Below are positions 1,670 to 19,189 of a DNA stretch of 23,826 nt, in pieces (positions within the stretch are counted from its first letter, which is position 1; every line of letters starts with the position of its first letter). Location: IMG/VR virus record IMGVR_UViG_3300030116_000783, positions 1 through 23,826 of that record. One strand, 5' to 3'. Position numbers and translations under genes: made by a program. The notes below the pieces were generated by a model. That model searched no databases. It worked only from the letters and a program-made list of their open reading frames with translations, and was not told the DNA's origin. The DNA comes from a virus.

Positions 1670-3391
1670 TTAATAAGATTTACTTATAAAGCCATCATCG
1701 GGGGTATTAGAATTTCTTATTTGTCCATGAGACATACCCATAGCAGTTTGAGAGATAGTGTTATTCATAAAAGACCCCCAGTTATCTAGGTGTACTCTAA
1801 GCATTTCATCTTTACGAGAGTTAATATTACGGTCTTCATCCTGGTTCATGTATTCAGTCCAGTAAGCTACAGCACCAGATAGAGCATCAAGGATGTCATC
1901 GTGAACTAAAGAACCTCTATGTCTTGTTATACGAGACATTTGATAGAAGAGTTGAAGTTTAAGTTTTCTTTCTGGAGCTTCATTAGGGTTAGATCTATAG
2001 TCTTTTTCTACTACCTTTCTGTCAATTATGAGTCTATGAGAGTTCATTACAGGTTCTAAGGTATCTATGATGCGTAATTCTTTAGTTTTAGTGTTTCTAA
2101 CGTCTTGTATTTCACAGGGATGATACCTCATAAGGAAAGGTTTCATGAGTTCTGCAAACATACCACCACCCATGTTTGATTCTACAAGGATTGTATTAAC
2201 TTTATTTGTCTTAGCTATCTTGGATAGGGTTGTTAATACAGCGTCACTGTAACCACCGTTAAGACCCCCTGCATCAGGAACGTATAGATTACCATTAAGC
2301 ATCTTCACAACAGCGTAACCAGTGGCATCTCGACCCTTCCCAGAGGGGTCTACGAACATCACAGAGCCTGTATATTCAATCCAATCACCAAATTGTTGAG
2401 CAGGTCGGTAGAAATGATCACCATTAAACCCTACACAAGGTAATTCTTTGATTACATACTCTGGTGATGATGACCATATGATCTTTTCTGGTGCGTGATC
2501 AATGTTAACACTGCTGATAATAAGGTCTGATAGCTTTAGAGGGTATCTATCTTGGTCAGATAGGCTAGTGTCTAGCATAAACTGTAAAGAGAACCCAGAA
2601 CGGCCATAGGAAGCTTCTCGTTCCATCAGATCTATTGATGAGAACCTATCAGGGTCAACAGGCTCTTTAGGCTTTACAAGCTCTTGTACAAGCTTTTCTG
2701 TTAACTTAGGAGCTAATCTGTCTCCATAGTTGTTTTTAAGCTCTGGATAACGTGCAGTCCAGATACGAGTCGTATATCCACGTTCTTCTAGGGTTAGATA
2801 TAGAGATTGTTCTGTTTGTGGTGTACCAAGAAAGGTTATCTTGCCGTTTGGTTTTAAGATTGCATCAAATTCTTTTACAGCTTCCGATAATTTGTCTCTC
2901 ATCGGTTGAGTAAAGCTGTTATTTGGTACTTCTACGTCATCTGCTATGACCTCATCTGCACGACTACCAGCCATTTGCCCTAGAACACCCTGAGACTTTA
3001 CTGAAGGGGCGTGGTCAGCGTGTGCAGGGCCAACATCAAAACTGATCTTACTGTTTCTTTGAGAGTCATCTGGTCGTAATGGAGCAAGTATAGGCATCTC
3101 ATTGATTAATCTCATAGTGAAAGTAGAGAAGTTATCTGCTCTATCCTTACTTGCAGATACAACTAAAAACTTTAATTGTGGATTCATCCGTAGTTTCCAT
3201 ACAACATAGGTAGATGTAATCCAACTCTTACCTACACCTCTAAAGGCTTGTATGATCTTTCTACGAGGACCGTATTGTAAATACTCAGCTATGTCTAATT
3301 GAACTGGCGTGGGGTCAGGTAGGTTAAGATGTCGCCAGGTTATTATTAGAAAGTATCTAAAATCTTGTAGTTTCTCAGGAAGTGGTTGCAT
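1670..3391 (-). CDS. terL: Terminase large subunit (gp19/DNA maturase B type)
   Basis: The packaging motor ATPase and nuclease, which acts at the portal to cut concatemers and pump DNA into proheads. Walker A is at about residues 49-56 (AFRGVGKS) and Walker B at about 146-153 (DEVIADDV). The nuclease part has VDPSGKGRDATG (347-358), ILVESNMGGG (401-410) and HDDILDALSGAVAYW (497-511), supplying the acidic metal ligands. At 573 residues it matches the T7 gp19 type. It begins 17 bp inside the end of the methyltransferase gene, with GAGGG about 13 nt upstream of the ATG. It is the last virion-assembly gene on the strand, followed by the non-coding junction, as in T7. Confidence 0.96.
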   Translation of the reverse strand: MQPLPEKLQDFRYFLIITWRHLNLPDPTPVQLDIAEYLQYGPRRKIIQAFRGVGKSWITSTYVVWKLRMNPQLKFLVVSASKDRADNFSTFTMRLINEMPILAPLRPDDSQRNSKISFDVGPAHADHAPSVKSQGVLGQMAGSRADEVIADDVEVPNNSFTQPMRDKLSEAVKEFDAILKPNGKITFLGTPQTEQSLYLTLEERGYTTRIWTARYPELKNNYGDRLAPKLTEKLVQELVKPKEPVDPDRFSSIDLMEREASYGRSGFSLQFMLDTSLSDQDRYPLKLSDLIISSVNIDHAPEKIIWSSSPEYVIKELPCVGFNGDHFYRPAQQFGDWIEYTGSVMFVDPSGKGRDATGYAVVKMLNGNLYVPDAGGLNGGYSDAVLTTLSKIAKTNKVNTILVESNMGGGMFAELMKPFLMRYHPCEIQDVRNTKTKELRIIDTLEPVMNSHRLIIDRKVVEKDYRSNPNEAPERKLKLQLFYQMSRITRHRGSLVHDDILDALSGAVAYWTEYMNQDEDRNINSRKDEMLRVHLDNWGSFMNNTISQTAMGMSHGQIRNSNTPDDGFISKSY

Positions 3392-4364
3392 AAAGATCTT
3401 TTACCCTCTGCAAAGGAATAGCTGCACATTGAGGTACAACACTATTGCCTAATGATCTAAGTCTGTCCACCCTATTTCGTAACCCATCATCTCCTCTACA
3501 AAGGCTGGGTTCAGAAACATATCTTCTCCAGTCTGGGTCGAGAGTTCTCCTCTCCTTGCTATTAAGGAAAGCATTTGTCCAGATTGGTGATTCCATTCTT
3601 TTGCTGTTGCTTTGTGTTCTAAAGCTGTCGGGGTTGGTAGAACTAAATGTATCTTTCTGCCTAATGTGTCTTGTTTCTTGCAGTTCTTTGTTGAATTGTA
3701 ACAGCCGTCTTTGTGATCTCTTGCTGTCGGAGTCGGTAAACTCTGAAGCTCGTTGAACAACTGTACTGTTTCTGGATTTACTGCTTCTCTCAGATTGGCA
3801 AGTTTGGTTCTGCCCTTTCTGTGTTCTGTCACTTGTTTTACCATTGAATCCACACTTCTCTGTGGAAGGTGATCCATTGTCGTTGGGGTAGGCAATGAGC
3901 CACCACCTGCTTCTCTGATGACAGGCTCCCACAGAACTTGCTGAAATAACTGACCACTCTGCATCATACCCTGCTTCGGAAAGTTCCCTGAGTACAATGT
4001 CCAACCCTCTATTAAGGATCGCTGCCACGTTCTCCAAGACAACGTATTTGGGTCGTACCATGCGTATGACTCGCATGAGTTCGTAAAACAAACCTGATCT
4101 GGTTTCTTTGGTAATACCTTTTTGAAGGCCTGCAACTGATATGTCTTGACAGGGAAATCCTCCTGTAATGACTTGATATTGAAAAGGTTCTGCTGTAAAG
4201 GTTCTGATGTCGTCATGGATAGGAACGTGTGGCCAATGTTTTTTGAGGACTTTTTGACAGAAAGGGTCAATTTCTATAAATTGTGTAGTTTCAAAACCGC
4301 CTATAAGTTTTTCAGCAGCATAACTGAAACCACCTATACCTGCAAAGGTATCTAAAATTTTCAT
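3375..4364 (-). CDS. C5-cytosine DNA methyltransferase (Dcm-like)
   Basis: Transfers a methyl group from S-adenosylmethionine to cytosine C5 in DNA, probably to protect phage DNA from host restriction. Visible motifs: I (DTFAGIGGFSYA, residues 5-16), IV with catalytic Cys72 (GGFPCQDIS), VI (ENV, 111-113), VIII (HQRSRWWLIAY, 149-159) and X (GNSVVP, 306-311). Residues about 165-275, where the target-recognition region should be, are low-complexity and rich in S, K, R, Q and N. That same DNA encodes the conserved-looking part of the overlapping frame. The ATG has GAGAG 7 nt upstream, inside the end of the small terminase gene. It sits between the two terminase genes, which are adjacent or nearly so in most T7-like phages. 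All catalytic motifs are intact, so it is probably active. Confidence 0.95.
   Translation of the reverse strand: MKILDTFAGIGGFSYAAEKLIGGFETTQFIEIDPFCQKVLKKHWPHVPIHDDIRTFTAEPFQYQVITGGFPCQDISVAGLQKGITKETRSGLFYELMRVIRMVRPKYVVLENVAAILNRGLDIVLRELSEAGYDAEWSVISASSVGACHQRSRWWLIAYPNDNGSPSTEKCGFNGKTSDRTQKGQNQTCQSERSSKSRNSTVVQRASEFTDSDSKRSQRRLLQFNKELQETRHIRQKDTFSSTNPDSFRTQSNSKRMESPIWTNAFLNSKERRTLDPDWRRYVSEPSLCRGDDGLRNRVDRLRSLGNSVVPQCAAIPLQRVKDLYATTS
3449..4270 (-). CDS. Overprinted protein inside the methyltransferase gene (PTPT-repeat protein)
   Basis: A same-strand +1 frame stays open for up to 273 codons within the methyltransferase gene. It contains TLSWRTWQRSLIEGW (about residues 76-90), LPTPT at 126-130, 178-182 and 211-215, and a C-terminal LNPAFVEEMMGYEIGWTDL (253-271). 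I recall proteins with WPTPTARD-type repeats and a terminal LNPxFVExxMGxPxGWTD from many phage and bacterial genomes, often beside or overlapping C5 methyltransferases. Function is unknown to me. The bases coding its last block also encode methyltransferase residues SEPSLCRGDDGLRNRVDRL. The longest form starts with TTG (4270); the first ATG is at 4216; neither has a clear ribosome binding site. A frameshift product of the methyltransferase is another possibility. Confidence 0.7.
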   Translation of the reverse strand: MTLSVKKSSKNIGHTFLSMTTSEPLQQNLFNIKSLQEDFPVKTYQLQAFKKVLPKKPDQVCFTNSCESYAWYDPNTLSWRTWQRSLIEGWTLYSGNFPKQGMMQSGQLFQQVLWEPVIREAGGGSLPTPTTMDHLPQRSVDSMVKQVTEHRKGRTKLANLREAVNPETVQLFNELQSLPTPTARDHKDGCYNSTKNCKKQDTLGRKIHLVLPTPTALEHKATAKEWNHQSGQMLSLIARRGELSTQTGEDMFLNPAFVEEMMGYEIGWTDLDH

Positions 4365-5130: not shown

Positions 5131-5295
5131 TCAGTTCATTTTGGGAAACAACTGTTGCTCTAACATATCAACGGCTCTGTCATCAAGAGTATTCGAGGTC
5201 TGCTTGCAAATTGCACGAAGCAAATCGACTACTAATCTTTTTACAGCAGTTGTGGTAAAGAACTTTAGTAGTATGGGTTTTAAGATTTTCAGCAT
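5131..5295 (-). CDS. 54-aa small hypothetical protein with hydrophobic N-terminus
   Basis: The sequence starts MLKILKPILLKFF, continues TAVKRLVVDLLRAI, then ends with an acidic segment, NTLDDRAVDMLEQQLF. The order, a hydrophobic or amphipathic basic helix, then VDLL, then a D-rich helix, matches a small protein I recall from many marine phages; its role is unknown to me. An upstream TTG (5328) would add 11 residues, but the ATG at 5295 fits that pattern better. It lies between a possible 21-aa gene and the 102-aa gene. The plus-strand frame open across the same bases is taken as a shadow. Confidence 0.6.
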   Translation of the reverse strand: MLKILKPILLKFFTTTAVKRLVVDLLRAICKQTSNTLDDRAVDMLEQQLFPKMN

Positions 5296-5308
5296 AATTA
5301 GTATTGTG

Positions 5309-5374
5309 TTACTTTCCAAACATACCAATATTTGCTAAGTTTGCCATATAGCTGCCTAAATAAGCAGTGGTCAA
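5309..5374 (-). CDS. Possible 21-aa peptide with TTG start and strong ribosome binding site
   Basis: A GAGGAG at 5382-5387 (complement) stands 7 nt before a TTG at 5374-5372, opening a 21-codon frame that ends LANIGMFGK and stops 13 nt before the ATG of the 54-aa gene. It is glycine, alanine and aromatic rich, with AYLGSYMANLANIGMF possibly spanning or inserting in a membrane. The strong Shine-Dalgarno and operon position support it. Length and start codon argue caution: the site may instead serve as a leader for the next gene. Confidence 0.35.
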   Translation of the reverse strand: MTTAYLGSYMANLANIGMFGK

Positions 5375-5407
5375 CAGCTTACTCCTCACACACTAGGCAG
5401 TTTTTTT
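5352..5407 (+). terminator. Hairpin plus T7 tract just upstream of the + strand cassette
   Basis: CTGCCTA (5352-5358) pairs with TAGGCAG (5394-5400), followed directly by seven T (5401-5407). A nested stem TAAGC (5361-5365) / GCTTA (5377-5381) lies in the loop. This has the form of an intrinsic terminator or attenuator on the + strand. It ends 3 bp before the ATG of the first cassette gene, so it would stop read-through from the left or regulate cassette expression. It also overlaps the leader of the minus-strand peptide. Confidence 0.55.
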
Positions 5408-5410
5408 AAT

Positions 5411-5650
5411 ATGGAAGATCAAGAACCAAGTAAAGTCGAAACCATTGTCAAAGTTTGTGTTCTTCTTTGGAGTGCAACGCTATTATCTCTTTCATATTAC
5501 GAACCGCCATCTGGTAAAAAGATTGTAGATTTTGATCCAACTTTCATAGCCTCGATCTTTAGTGCCTCCACTGCCTCACTGGGATTTTCGATAAAAAAGA
5601 AAAAAGATACTATAGTAGATAATAAGAACACTAAAGTAGGCATCAAATGA
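5411..5650 (+). CDS. 79-aa small membrane protein, holin-like
   Basis: Two hydrophobic stretches are visible, VCVLLWSATLLSLSYY (about residues 15-30) and FIASIFSASTASLGFSI (about 45-61), followed by a lysine-rich tail KKKKD. Small size, two membrane segments and a basic tail fit a class II holin-like protein, but no endolysin gene is next to it, so the role is only inferred. The ATG follows a T-run and has no Shine-Dalgarno. The stop overlaps the ATG of the next gene (ATGA). It is the first gene of a four-gene cassette opposite to the structural genes. Confidence 0.65.
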   Translation: MEDQEPSKVETIVKVCVLLWSATLLSLSYYEPPSGKKIVDFDPTFIASIFSASTASLGFSIKKKKDTIVDNKNTKVGIK

Positions 5651-6003
5651 AAAAGCTACTCTTACTAGGTTTATTTATAGCTGCACCTTGTTACGCAAAC
5701 GGAGTACCAACTTGGAGTACAGGCTCTAGTAACCGCACTGAAAATACAACTCAGACTATCACTCGTAGCATTGTGACTGAGAAATATGGATCAGCAGTAA
5801 ACACTTGGGAAGGATCTAATATATCTGTAGCTGCATCTGCTGGTATTGCAGGTGGTGATGCAGTATTTACTGTTGACGATTCATCATTACCTTGGTCGCT
5901 GAATATCACAACAAGATCAGCAGGTCTTATTGAGCAAATAACTCAGAATGACACGATCAACACTACTAGCGTTATTACTAGCTTGTCTGTCTTTAGTCAG
6001 TAA
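5647..6003 (+). CDS. 118-aa secreted hypothetical protein, cassette gene 2
   Basis: A signal peptide is evident, MKKLLLLGLFIAAPCYA, with likely cleavage after residue 17 (CYA|NG). Cys15 is not in a proper lipobox. The mature part is T-, S- and N-rich with a beta-type pattern and ends NTTSVITSLSVFSQ. I recall marine phage proteins with the same T/S-rich body and SLSVFxQ ending next to a second secreted protein like the following gene. It would be exported to the periplasm or outer surface of the infected cell, or be in the virion. Function unknown. It overlaps the next gene by 56 bp in another frame. Confidence 0.75.
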   Translation: MKKLLLLGLFIAAPCYANGVPTWSTGSSNRTENTTQTITRSIVTEKYGSAVNTWEGSNISVAASAGIAGGDAVFTVDDSSLPWSLNITTRSAGLIEQITQNDTINTTSVITSLSVFSQ

Positions 6004-6481
6004 TAAAGCAAGAGCCGAAGGCGATACAAATGTACAGGCTCAACCTAATGCGGTTGGTAACTCTAGTATTATCAACCAGAATATGAATGTTAATAATGGA
6101 ATGACAGGTAAACTACAGTTTGGTAACTTAGTTTGTAGTCAACCCACTATGGCATTTACACCTTTCTATACAGGTAATGATGCACAAGGAGAAGATACAT
6201 ATAATATAAATGAAGGTTGGGGGTTTCAGATGAGTTTTATGATACCGCTAGGAACTAATAATGATACGTGTTCTGAATTAGCAAAAGTAAAGCTAGACCT
6301 AGCCAAAGAAGAATTAGACAAGCAAGTGCATGATAAGCAGCTAGTTCGTATCTTGAAGTGCGGACAGCTTCACGCATCAGGTTATATGATAAACCCTGCT
6401 TCAAAATACGCATACATCTGTAGTGATGTCATCAATATACGAAGTTATGTAAAAGCCAACGCAGAAAAATTTAAACAATAA
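5948..6481 (+). CDS. 177-aa secreted hypothetical protein, cassette gene 3
   Basis: The signal peptide MTRSTLLALLLACLSLVS ends near KARA|EG (residue 23). The mature part has an N/Q-rich region (NSSIINQNMNVNNGMTG), a probable beta-rich core, a coiled-coil stretch KVKLDLAKEELDKQVHD, and a C-terminal CGQLHASGYMINP...YICSDV. The four mature cysteines could form disulfides in the periplasm. From memory, cyanophage secreted proteins end with LKxCG...GxxxxPxSxYxxxCxDV in the same way, so this is likely the same family. It starts inside the previous gene and its last base is the first base of the next ATG. Confidence 0.75.
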   Translation: MTRSTLLALLLACLSLVSNKARAEGDTNVQAQPNAVGNSSIINQNMNVNNGMTGKLQFGNLVCSQPTMAFTPFYTGNDAQGEDTYNINEGWGFQMSFMIPLGTNNDTCSELAKVKLDLAKEELDKQVHDKQLVRILKCGQLHASGYMINPASKYAYICSDVINIRSYVKANAEKFKQ

Positions 6482-6801
6482 TGAAAAAAGTAATACGTAC
6501 TACAAGTCGTTTAAGAACACGTTTTATCGCTGTCTTAGCATTAATTATATCAGGAATTACATTTGGATCTGGTTTTATGGTGTTTTTATATATGAAAAGT
6601 CCAGCTTTTGAAAATCAGTTATTAGGACAAGTTATAAAACATATGGATTGGATTGTTGAAAATGAATTAGAAAAACAACTAAAAAAATTAAAACCAAGAC
6701 CTGTTACAGATGCAAACGATCCAAATAAATGGTTTTGGGATTACATTGAAAAAAGAAATAAAGAATATATAGAATGGGAAACTAAAGGTAAATGGCAATA
6801 A
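6481..6801 (+). CDS. 106-aa single-pass membrane protein, cassette gene 4
   Basis: A basic N-terminus (MKKVIRTTSRLRTRF) precedes one membrane helix at about residues 17-37 (IAVLALIISGITFGSGFMVFL). A helical, highly charged C-terminal domain rich in W, K and E then probably faces the periplasm. It overlaps the previous stop by one base (TAATG). The arrangement is compatible with an anchored partner of the two secreted proteins or an inner-membrane lysis accessory protein, but nothing specific identifies it. Codon use is more A-rich than in neighbouring genes. Confidence 0.7.
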   Translation: MKKVIRTTSRLRTRFIAVLALIISGITFGSGFMVFLYMKSPAFENQLLGQVIKHMDWIVENELEKQLKKLKPRPVTDANDPNKWFWDYIEKRNKEYIEWETKGKWQ

Positions 6802-6806
6802 TTTAA

Positions 6807-6852
6807 GTAGCTAGTTAGACGCCACACGTACAGGTATGTGAACTCTAGCTAC
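6807..6852. terminator. Hairpin between convergent genes, possible bidirectional terminator
   Basis: GTAGCTAG (6807-6814) and CTAGCTAC (6845-6852) are perfect complements with a 30-base loop that contains an inner CACA/TGTG pair. It lies between the end of the cassette and the end of the convergent 166-aa gene, whose TAG stop is in the right arm. Flanking T-runs are weak, so it may instead limit read-through or protect 3' ends. Confidence 0.45.
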
Positions 6853-7345
6853 CTTTATTATTATCTATCTTTTCTTTCACATTTGCGACTTCTTTTTTAA
6901 GAATCTTAGTAAAGATTTTCTTAAATGTTTTCTTGATAAAAGCTAATACTGACTGCATAGCAATCCCCCCTACCACGCTCGCTACTGATGCAGTACCCGC
7001 AGCGATTACAGAAGATGCAATGACTTCTGGTGCAGGTATAGGCATTTCACCATAAAAAGGTATAGTAAAGGTAGCTATAGCTTCTTCACTTGATAAGGTT
7101 TCTTTGGTTTCTGGCAGGTTTTTCGGTATTGATTCTGGTGTTACTTGCAACCCTTCCTCCTTTGCAGATTCTTTTTCTTCTTCGACAGAAGCTTCCTGAC
7201 CTCCCAAACCCGACTCTACCTGTTCCAGACTTGGAAGAAGAACTGGATCTAGATATGGAATCTCTGCCACAGGTGGATAGAATATTGTATTAGGTGGTAC
7301 GAGAATATAATCTGTATCAGGCAGATTAATTTCTGGTATATCCAT
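6845..7345 (-). CDS. 166-aa proline-rich, membrane-anchored structural-type protein
   Basis: The N-terminal 50 residues are rich in P, I and L (MDIPEINLPDTDYILVPPNT), followed by an acidic E/S/P-rich linker. A hydrophobic, alanine-rich segment (about residues 107-134, VIASSVIAAGTASVASVVGG) leads to a very basic tail (IKKTFKKIFTKILKK). I recall cyanophage proteins with the same order, proline-rich start, alanine-rich hydrophobic segment and lysine-rich end, annotated as structural. It is the last gene of the fibre-associated string, three bases after the glycine-rich gene. A role as virion or membrane-interacting protein is inferred. Confidence 0.65.
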   Translation of the reverse strand: MDIPEINLPDTDYILVPPNTIFYPPVAEIPYLDPVLLPSLEQVESGLGGQEASVEEEKESAKEEGLQVTPESIPKNLPETKETLSSEEAIATFTIPFYGEMPIPAPEVIASSVIAAGTASVASVVGGIAMQSVLAFIKKTFKKIFTKILKKEVANVKEKIDNNKGS

Positions 7346-16807: not shown

Positions 16808-19189
16808 CTACCTGTTCATTAAAAGGTTACGAGCATTAATTAAAGTCTGCTTAACTGCCATTGCATCTATTGTGGCATAGTTTCCAGCGTTGTCATTATC
16901 ATACATACCTTTACCATCTGGTCCTTGTATTGCAGCAAATTCTAATGCTAAATCTTCATGTGCTGCATTAAGATCATCACTTTGACCTGTAAGGTACGCA
17001 GCTAAAGAAGGTCGTTTTCTACCACTTAGTAACATACCCCAGAATAATCTATCTTGATTTTCTGGTGTCATAATATCATCTTTGCTAAGACCAGAATAAA
17101 CTCTAGCTTCTGTTAAAACATTAGGTGTAAATTGATAAGCTCCTACTGCAAAGACTTTACCATCAGCTTGCATTTGCTCCATCTCACCTATAGTTTTACT
17201 TGTTATATCCATTTCCCCTGCGGAATCAGTTGTACCACCGTTATATGCGTTATACAGACCACTACCCTCTGACTCACCACTTCTTACTAACTCTGCTAAA
17301 CCACCAAAATCAGGGAAGTTTTCTTGATTTAAAAGTTCTTGTAAATTAAATTCTACTGGCATACCACCGCCATAACCTGCACCTCTTCTGTTTTCAAAAT
17401 TCATTACATTATCTACTTCAAATTTTTGATTACCAAAAGCAGGTGTTTCGTTTGAATTTATAGGTTTTGGTTTTGGTTTTGGTTTTGGTGTATCATCTAT
17501 CTTAAAAATATCTTTTTCTACTCTTTCTCTTTCTTGTTTGATATATTCCTCAAAATCGCTTTGTGATGGTCCTCCTAAAAAATTATCTTTTTTTAGATAA
17601 TAATTTTCATTAATCCATTTTTCAAAATTTCTATCTAATTCTTGTTCATTTTTGTATTTTTCAATAAATGTATCATTATCAAGCCCTCCAACATTTACTG
17701 TCATACCATTACCCAAAGATATTCCACCAAATGTTCCATTATTACTTGCTTTAGATCTGTAAAAATTATCCATATCTGTTAATAATGGTTGTATTAAAGT
17801 ATCAAATTTTTTATATATAGATTTATATTCTTTAGATATACCTATTGCTTGCTCTAAATCTGTTATCAACGAATTGTCGGTAATACCTAAATCAACCATC
17901 TTATTTTTAATAATTGCTAAATCTTTTTGAGGTGTTTCATTATCTTTATAATTTTGAAATTTCATATTACTTCTTATATTTAATATTTCAGCCGTAAAAT
18001 TTTCTATGTAAGCATAATTATTACTTTTAAAAATCTCATGCAAATCACTATATTCCCTGTTGTTTTTTAATTTAGTAATTTCTTCTTTATATATTAATCG
18101 GTCTTCTTCAGTTTCTATTGGAAGAGAATTTATTTTATCCAATTCTTTTTCTAATCTTATTGTTCTTAATGCTTTCTGGATCTTTGGTCCTTGTGTAAGT
18201 TCTTCATTTAATTCATCTTCTATTTTTTCTAAAACAGGTGCTATTTTTCCTTTCCAATCTGGATGATCTACAAGAGTCCCATTGTTATTTCCGTATGGTA
18301 TTGATTGTCCAAGAGTTTCTAAAGAATCATCTAGGTCATCTAAATCATTAACATCAGCAGTAGTAGCTAAATACTCACCAATATCTGCAATACTATCTAT
18401 CATTGTTCCATAAATTTCTGAAGCATCAGAACCTGTTAATCCTAATTTTCTTGTGTCATTTATAAAATTTGTAATATCTATTTTTGCTGATTCTTTATCT
18501 CCGTCTAATATATTTTCTACCGCTTTATTTAGATAATCATTACTTAATGATTTAACTTGTTCTACATTAAAATTATTATGAGTTTCGGTAGCAAGAGTAT
18601 CTAATTCTAAAACTGAATTAGTTAAATTGTTAATAAAATTTTTTGAATTAATTTCACCACCTAAATCAATAACTTTTTGCGTTTGTTCTGCAAAATAATT
18701 TTTTCTCCAATTAATATATTCTTCATCACTTGTTGAAAATTCTTTAAGAGGTTTTTGTATTAAATTACCTTTATCATCAGTAATATCTACAACAGCATTT
18801 TTGTATGCTTCTTTTGCTTTTGGTAAAAGTTGTGAACCGTATAACTCACCTACATATTGTTTATAAAATCTTTTAACAAAAAAACTCCCACCGATAGTTT
18901 GTTTTGCTGCTTCATCTCCGTCTTCTTTTCTTATCTTGTTTATTGCCTTACCAACAGTACCATCAGCCAAGACAGTATCAGCAGCTAATTTTAAAGCTGT
19001 ACTTTTGTCTTCTTTAATTTTATCTTCTATTCTTTGTCCAATAAATTTTTGTAATGCTGGATTAACTGCTTCTAGTATCTCAGCTAATTCCTCTGCACCA
19101 CTTTTAGGTTGTACAGTTACAGGTTGCACAAAAGTATCTATAGGGCTTGTAGCAGATTGAAAAGCTGTACTTTGAAAACTGTTAGTCAT
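16808..19189 (-). CDS. Internal virion protein (gp15 type) with C-terminal lysozyme-like domain
   Basis: The first about 560 residues are long, charged helices (K/E/N-rich), like T7 gp15. A PKPKPKPKP hinge at about 567-576 leads to a globular C-terminal domain (about 625-793). It contains ELVRSGESEGSGLYNAYNGG, VGAYQFTPNVLTEA and a late helix VKQTLINARNLL. This fits lysozyme or lytic-transglycosylase folds: catalytic Glu in SGESEG, then G-A-Y-Q-F-x-P. It probably cuts peptidoglycan during DNA ejection. In T7 that activity is at the N-terminus of gp16. Start overlaps the gp14-type stop by one base (TAATG). Length of 793 is close to T7 gp15 (747). Confidence 0.85.
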   Translation of the reverse strand: MTNSFQSTAFQSATSPIDTFVQPVTVQPKSGAEELAEILEAVNPALQKFIGQRIEDKIKEDKSTALKLAADTVLADGTVGKAINKIRKEDGDEAAKQTIGGSFFVKRFYKQYVGELYGSQLLPKAKEAYKNAVVDITDDKGNLIQKPLKEFSTSDEEYINWRKNYFAEQTQKVIDLGGEINSKNFINNLTNSVLELDTLATETHNNFNVEQVKSLSNDYLNKAVENILDGDKESAKIDITNFINDTRKLGLTGSDASEIYGTMIDSIADIGEYLATTADVNDLDDLDDSLETLGQSIPYGNNNGTLVDHPDWKGKIAPVLEKIEDELNEELTQGPKIQKALRTIRLEKELDKINSLPIETEEDRLIYKEEITKLKNNREYSDLHEIFKSNNYAYIENFTAEILNIRSNMKFQNYKDNETPQKDLAIIKNKMVDLGITDNSLITDLEQAIGISKEYKSIYKKFDTLIQPLLTDMDNFYRSKASNNGTFGGISLGNGMTVNVGGLDNDTFIEKYKNEQELDRNFEKWINENYYLKKDNFLGGPSQSDFEEYIKQERERVEKDIFKIDDTPKPKPKPKPINSNETPAFGNQKFEVDNVMNFENRRGAGYGGGMPVEFNLQELLNQENFPDFGGLAELVRSGESEGSGLYNAYNGGTTDSAGEMDITSKTIGEMEQMQADGKVFAVGAYQFTPNVLTEARVYSGLSKDDIMTPENQDRLFWGMLLSGRKRPSLAAYLTGQSDDLNAAHEDLALEFAAIQGPDGKGMYDNDNAGNYATIDAMAVKQTLINARNLLMNR
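17463..17488. repeat. Tandem hexamer repeat encoding Pro-Lys hinge
   Basis: GG(TTTTGG)x4 on the plus strand; the coding strand reads CCAAAA units giving alternating P and K. The hinge separates the helical body from the lysozyme-like domain, and hexamer slippage would change its length in frame. Confidence 0.8.

Follow-up and report, generated by a model that had tools for sequence, protein, structure and literature searches.

Four cyanophage genes, here called P, A, B, and C, constitute, judged from comparison of their sequences and genome contexts, a conserved and horizontally shared module of predicted envelope proteins in marine cyanophages, and the explanation that we tentatively consider best is that this module acts late in infection in host lysis or envelope disruption. 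The stretch of DNA analysed (the window) is a 24-kb virus record of 23,826 nt of the T7-like MPP-C cyanopodovirus type. It has DNA in common with P-SCSP1 and P-SCSP2, contains genes for TerL, the tail tube, and internal virion proteins, and encodes a tail adaptor whose nearest PDB chain is that of P-SCSP1u. A previous sequence-only reading of the window had pointed to four overlapping plus-strand genes at 5411–6801 in an otherwise minus-strand late region, and these ORFs are real; all have ATG starts, and successive genes overlap by 4 nt (A/B), 56 nt (B/C), and 1 nt (C/D). The features of this region are as follows.

5131–5328, minus strand: phrog_2738 protein, amphipathic, 54 aa from the ATG at 5295; a conserved neighbour
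5350–5403, plus strand: RNA element with a Yfr1/Yfr10 motif (exact 13-mer, fold, compensatory changes)
5411–5650, plus strand: gene A, DUF6450, predicted small two-helix membrane protein of 79 aa with holin-like topology (PF20048, phrog_21865, hydropathy)
5647–6003, plus strand: gene B, predicted secreted beta protein of 118 aa (phrog_650, structure model)
5948–6481, plus strand: gene C, predicted secreted protein of 177 aa with conserved cysteines, its start nested in B (phrog_1755/848)
6481–6801, plus strand: gene D, 106 aa with a single N-terminal helix, an accessory insertion found in this species only
6807–6852, no strand assigned: 8-bp inverted repeat between D and P (6807–6814/6845–6852) with a 30-nt loop, read from the sequence
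6845–7345, minus strand: gene P, Pro-rich, with one C-terminal hydrophobic segment and a basic tail (phrog_9426; T4-GC 234-like), the fourth conserved member of the module

Relatives were fetched with three gene C seeds and their genes assigned by iterative profile search, which gave 258 loci that are related to one another and seeded on gene C, so that counts among them are not independent and the presence of C in every locus results from selection. In MPP-C podoviruses (78 loci including the window), the arrangement is A+B+C+ convergent with P−, and in MPP-B (77 loci) it is P+A+B+C+, collinear with the structural genes. T4-like cyanophages (50 complete loci and further partial ones) have X+B+C+ convergent with P− and a distant A−, where X is a paralogue of B that weakly matches DUF6322. 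The siphoviruses MED4-117 and MED4-184 have A+X+B+C+, and the MED4-184 locus also includes genes for a tape measure and a major tail protein. The side-by-side occurrence of the two secreted proteins in cyanophages, already mentioned in the sequence-only reading, is borne out, as 245 of the 258 loci have B immediately before C on the same strand. Nearly every MPP-B and MPP-C locus examined has A and B along with C, and isolates with A and B beside C are P-SSP7, NATL1A-7, S-RIP1, P-SCSP1b, P-SCSP2, and P-RSP2. Among the phages checked, the sole absences were in the MPP-A phages Syn5 and P60, where A, B, C, and P had no profile match. The A proteins of MED4-117 and MED4-184 are 95–96% identical to that of the window, and the promoter-like sequence upstream of them is shared with other MPP-C phages, which together indicate a recent exchange between phage types infecting the same host.

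This distribution changes how the cassette should be viewed. It had been described as behaving like a moron, a description that does not hold for A-B-C, since the podovirus loci of MPP-B and MPP-C that were examined retain these genes, which also recur in T4-like and siphovirus cyanophages. The conserved unit is P-A-B-C and not A-B-C-D; D alone may fit a moron, being an extra unit absent from close relatives at that site. Nor were homologues confined to virion proteins standing outside the cassette order. The reverse-strand setting is true of the window, but such an inversion characterises the MPP-C clade, as the MPP-B genes run collinear with the structural genes. In P-SCSP1b and some of its relatives TerL is also inverted and runs with A-B-C, which implies more than one inversion at this end of MPP-C genomes.

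Part of the module has been noticed before in T4-like phages, where T4-GCs 218, 219, 234, 235, and 237 were described as a mobile hypothetical cluster in 15 of 16 cyanomyoviruses (Sullivan et al. 2010, PMC3037559). The T4-like A, P, C, and X belong to these clusters, and the notes of the Syn33 record assign GC 218, 234, 235, and 237, GC 236 (which is B), and in addition GC 414 (plasmid stability). That description concerned T4-like phages only and gave no function (PMC3037559); added here are the occurrence of the module in podoviruses and siphoviruses, the nesting of the start of C in B, the late motifs, the argument from genome slot, and the RNA element.

Gene A belongs to phrog_21865 (E 2e-39) and to Pfam DUF6450 (PF20048, 63.8 bits vs a gathering cut-off of 25). 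Its description as a two-helix membrane protein agrees with the two hydrophobic segments in the family-averaged hydropathy, the second of them weak, and with the P-SSP7 orthologue, which is annotated with two TMHMM helices; class II holins are small late proteins with two transmembrane helices, and A may be one. Signal peptides and helices in the other products were judged by simple hydropathy scripts and not by SignalP, and on this basis B and C each begin with a sequence resembling a signal peptide, and D, an anchored single-pass protein in the sequence-only reading, has one predicted helix at its N-terminus.

Gene B falls in phrog_650 (E 5e-17). A Pfam search of the window's B gave no match to DUF6322 (PF19847) at E 0.1; its T4-like and siphovirus relatives match this family at 141, 118, and 54 bits, the T4-like phrog_650 members being DUF6322 proteins, and they are tied to the window's B through phrog_650 and the alignment, which also shows an invariant S..S.F.Q at the C-terminus. 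The AlphaFold2 model of B (pLDDT 89) has two strands of about 24 residues. We considered B as a pore-former and rejected it, as the stems of beta-pore proteins retrieved by Foldseek and VIA-align reflect a long-hairpin resemblance only (VIA Z ≤4.5, TM about 0.2), and a membrane barrel or pore is also disfavoured by strands that are too little amphipathic and have no hydrophobic face. Gene C belongs to phrog_1755 (E 5e-27) and phrog_848, and its cysteines are conserved in the alignment, in keeping with export. Its AlphaFold2 model (pLDDT 60) has no significant fold match, and neither the B nor the C model gave a convincing PDB match. A host origin of C was also considered, but its matches in a genome collection, including Prochlorococcus single-cell assemblies, have the phage module around them, and therefore no cellular homologue was found.

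Gene D matched no family, and tblastn against 50,697 phage records gave no match to it. It occurs only in four loci of this species, inserted in the gap between C and P (363 nt here vs a median of 35 nt). A weak profile similarity to T4-GC 414 (E 0.62, hhalign probability 64%) makes it possible that D is an analogue of that protein. T4-GC 414, annotated as ‘plasmid stability’ in cyanophages, is a small protein with a single hydrophobic segment at the N-terminus and a tail rich in Pro, for which reason its name is probably wrong. On the other side of the cassette, the phrog_2738 protein of the window is homologous to Syn5 gp48, which stands directly before TerS in Syn5.

The start of C lies within B in another frame, and over 5948–6003 the 3' end of B also encodes the start and the signal-peptide core of C. 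This nesting recurs at different distances: 71 of 79 MPP-C loci have an ATG at −55, roughly two thirds of MPP-B loci have an ATG, GTG, or TTG at −111, and 64 of 76 T4-like loci have an ATG at −165; only three loci are without a start for C. Some eight codons before the T4-like start of C, the conservation of synonymous codons in B increases from about 0.1 to 0.4, and in MPP-C it is raised only over the last 16 codons or so. Such constraint near the start of C supports translation and selection of both frames. A programmed frameshift from B into C was considered since T4-like C has no start codon near its hydrophobic segment, and was set aside because an upstream in-frame start of C roughly coincides with the onset of synonymous constraint in B.

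With regard to timing, the motif [AC]TAAATA occurs within 60 nt upstream of X in 58 of 69 T4-like loci and of A in 48 of 56, and upstream of P in 2 of 68, in loci that were fetched by homology and are hence related sequences. As a control, TAAATA was found in 2.6% of random 60-mers and upstream of 33 of 291 other ORFs. Both T4-like operons, the one with X-B-C and the one with A, thus have a late-promoter-like motif, although their neighbours are replication genes such as regA, gp62, and gp43. These motifs suggest late expression of the T4-like module.

A further argument is the genome slot. In T7 the order of genes is holin 17.5, TerS 18, Rz 18.5/18.7, and TerL 19, and in MPP-B the module fills the gap between the tail fibres and TerS/TerL. 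In P60, a sister phage without A-B-C, this place is taken by an endolysin gene (phrog_181, E 2.8e-31), and the protein encoded next to it has, by eye, one N-terminal hydrophobic segment and a charged, heptad-like remainder. Further, the complete MPP-C isolate P-SCSP1b (40 genes) has hardly any predicted membrane or exported proteins besides A, B, C, and P, and neither its annotation nor a scan of a set of its genes revealed an endolysin, holin, or spanin. Cyanophages are among the phages listed as spanin-less: 20 of the 91 phages listed without spanins infect Prochlorococcus or Synechococcus, and P-SSP7, Syn5, P60, Syn9, S-PM2, P-HM1/2, Syn33, and others in this list cover all three phage types (PMC6139136).

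From slot, timing, and elimination, and not from homology, we infer that the module serves in lysis or envelope disruption, and we propose how its members might share this work. In this explanation, A with its two helices, perhaps together with P and the amphipathic phrog_2738 protein, would serve as a holin or anchor at the inner membrane, and B and C would be exported and take over the work of spanins in the periplasm or at the outer membrane, C probably being stabilised by disulphides. The presence of the same module in three phage types speaks for it, as does the B/C overlap, which is under selection and formally resembles that of Rz/Rz1. The likeness to the T7 lysis region (17.5, 18.5/18.7) and to two-component spanins extends to the genome slot, the small two-helix protein, and the overlapping exported genes; the module differs in having no sequence relation to that system, no lipoprotein signal, and no endolysin, and B is beta-rich and not a coiled coil. 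Read by eye, the aligned N-termini of B and C contain no consistent lipobox ([LVI][ASTVI][GAS]C), the mark of the o-spanin lipoprotein in two-component spanins. Also against a lysis role are the lack of any match of A, B, C, P, or D to a lysis family in PHROG or Pfam and of a convincing PDB match for B and C, the lysis of hosts by MPP-A phages Syn5 and P60 without the module, and S-PM2, which was reported to be without the T4-like cluster (PMC3037559). With no endolysin in the module, lysis would also need one encoded elsewhere. The broader claim that the products modify the envelope of the infected cell stands in that all are membrane or exported proteins by sequence and likely envelope-directed, though the moron framing attached to it fails. 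A concrete four-gene candidate common to podo-, myo-, and siphoviruses gives a testable starting point for the question of how cyanophages get through the outer membrane of Prochlorococcus and Synechococcus.

A further feature lies directly upstream of A. Hairpins had been reported on both sides of the cassette; the upstream one is real and shows compensatory changes, and the one downstream, recognised by eye alone, is an inverted repeat of 8 bp. Neither was called in a scan for terminator patterns, because both loops exceed the size that the scan allows. Instead of a plain terminator, the upstream hairpin is an RNA element (5350–5403) consisting of an outer stem, GCTGCCTA/TAGGCAGT, an inner hairpin, and a single-stranded ACTCCTCACACAC at 5381–5393, and a tract of seven T ends about 5 nt before the ATG of A. 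ACTCCTCACACAC is the exact 13-nt Yfr1/Yfr10 core and the sole site in the window at up to two mismatches; this core has been described for Yfr1 and its relatives in Prochlorococcus (PMC2518516). The predicted fold (MFE −14.9 kcal/mol, z −2.24) leaves the motif unpaired inside the outer stem, whose seven pairs are kept in 20 of 20 distinct variants, with compensatory changes from G-C to A-U and from C-G to U-A (two positions) and G-U intermediates. These G-U pairs exist on the plus strand only.

The motif is present in 11 of 80 MPP-C loci that were not chosen for it, in every case a short way upstream of A; scanning 2.9 million viral contigs for the pattern yielded some 35 more elements at the same place, these being chosen by the motif. 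In 77 loci the sequence extends far enough upstream to be classified. By loose patterns chosen after the sequences were seen, 51 of these carry a −10-like sequence of the TAGTAT type in place of the element, and 21 carry the element itself or a terminator-like hairpin resembling it. P-SCSP1b has the element, and P-SCSP2 has a promoter-like sequence instead; as P-SCSP1 and P-SCSP2 both infect MED4, they offer a natural comparison. The element scores below gathering for Rfam Yfr1 (RF01116, 12.7 vs 38 bits). An Rfam Cyano-1 match on the minus strand (20.3 of 41 bits) was treated as the complement of the Yfr1 core, because the G-U pairs and the T tract favour the plus strand. The element shares with Yfr1 and Yfr10 of Prochlorococcus the identical 13-nt ACUCCUCACACAC core and the T tract (PMC2518516, PMC6778093), and with Yfr10 a motif that is single-stranded in a loop closed by a stem (PMC6778093), as the exact ACUCCUCACACAC and the predicted fold indicate. 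It differs in being encoded by a phage, in its position immediately 5' of gene A, and in a score under the Rfam cut-off for Yfr1. We found no report of a phage copy of Yfr1 in the published open-access full-text papers on Yfr1 and cyanophages, and a phage RNA with the exact Yfr1/Yfr10 core would, on the literature searched, be the first relative of this cyanobacterial sRNA circuit to come from a virus.

The element may be transcribed as an sRNA, or it may be part of a leader through which expression of the cassette is attenuated. In a more elaborate form of the lysis explanation, which we regard as speculative and doubtful, P-A-B-C would work independently of spanins, and some MPP-C phages would have captured a Yfr10-type RNA upstream of it, as a mimic that titrates Yfr2 and hits Yfr1/Yfr10 targets, as a terminator-attenuator opened by Yfr2, or as both. 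If this were true, the lysis genes would respond to the light or nitrogen state of the host.

The element also bears on a different, rather unlikely explanation, namely superinfection exclusion or remodelling of receptors or porins, the kind of role favoured in the sequence-only reading, in which A would sit in the inner membrane and B and C would coat or alter the periplasm and outer membrane and so block a second phage. All products are membrane or secreted proteins, as this would require, and the module is common to phages of the same hosts, with recent exchange between podovirus and siphovirus (A 95–96% identical). PMM1119 and PMM1121 presumably encode porins. Yfr1 has been shown to bind their mRNAs (PMC6778093), and an RNA with the Yfr1/Yfr10 core adjoins the module in some MPP-C phages, both of which count in favour of such remodelling. 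However, the late-promoter-like motifs in T4-like relatives speak against early blocking, and the near-universal presence in MPP-B and MPP-C would be unusual, as exclusion genes are typically patchy.

Late expression would suit a virion protein equally, and B and C could be exported or membrane-passing components of a fibre or injection apparatus. Tail fibre genes adjoin the module in podoviruses, and B is all-beta with very long strands. Nonetheless, we consider a virion or assembly role decidedly unlikely, since proteins of virions that assemble in the cytoplasm do not usually have conserved cysteines and N-termini resembling signal peptides, and the genes are conserved between podo-, myo-, and siphoviruses with unrelated tails. 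In addition, neither B nor C has a match among the chains of solved PDB entries, some of which are virion chains from the MPP-C phage P-SCSP1u, and these T4-GCs were called hypothetical, not structural (Sullivan 2010, PMC3037559).

Finally, secreted surface fibres or adhesins similar to the curli (type VIII) modules of pelagiphages are highly improbable, as Pfam gave no match to CsgA, CsgF, CsgG, or curlin repeats and the module has no CsgG-like pore gene, even though X and B are Thr/Ser-rich secreted beta paralogues that recall CsgA/CsgB and pelagiphages do carry curli operons (PMC7029224, PMC9599517). The CsgGF modules of pelagiphages and Melnitz, proposed to time lysis, resemble P-A-B-C as a phage-borne secreted or outer membrane set common to phage families (PMC9004378), but they are made of different proteins.

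Elsewhere in the window, a C5 cytosine DNA methyltransferase (PF00145, 151.6 bits) is encoded on the minus strand at 3375–4364, between TerL and the cassette; few related loci have one. Besides, residues 633–759 of a large late protein (16808–19189, minus strand) weakly match the endolysin-class phrog_90 (E 4e-7), and this region is possibly a virion-borne wall-degrading domain.
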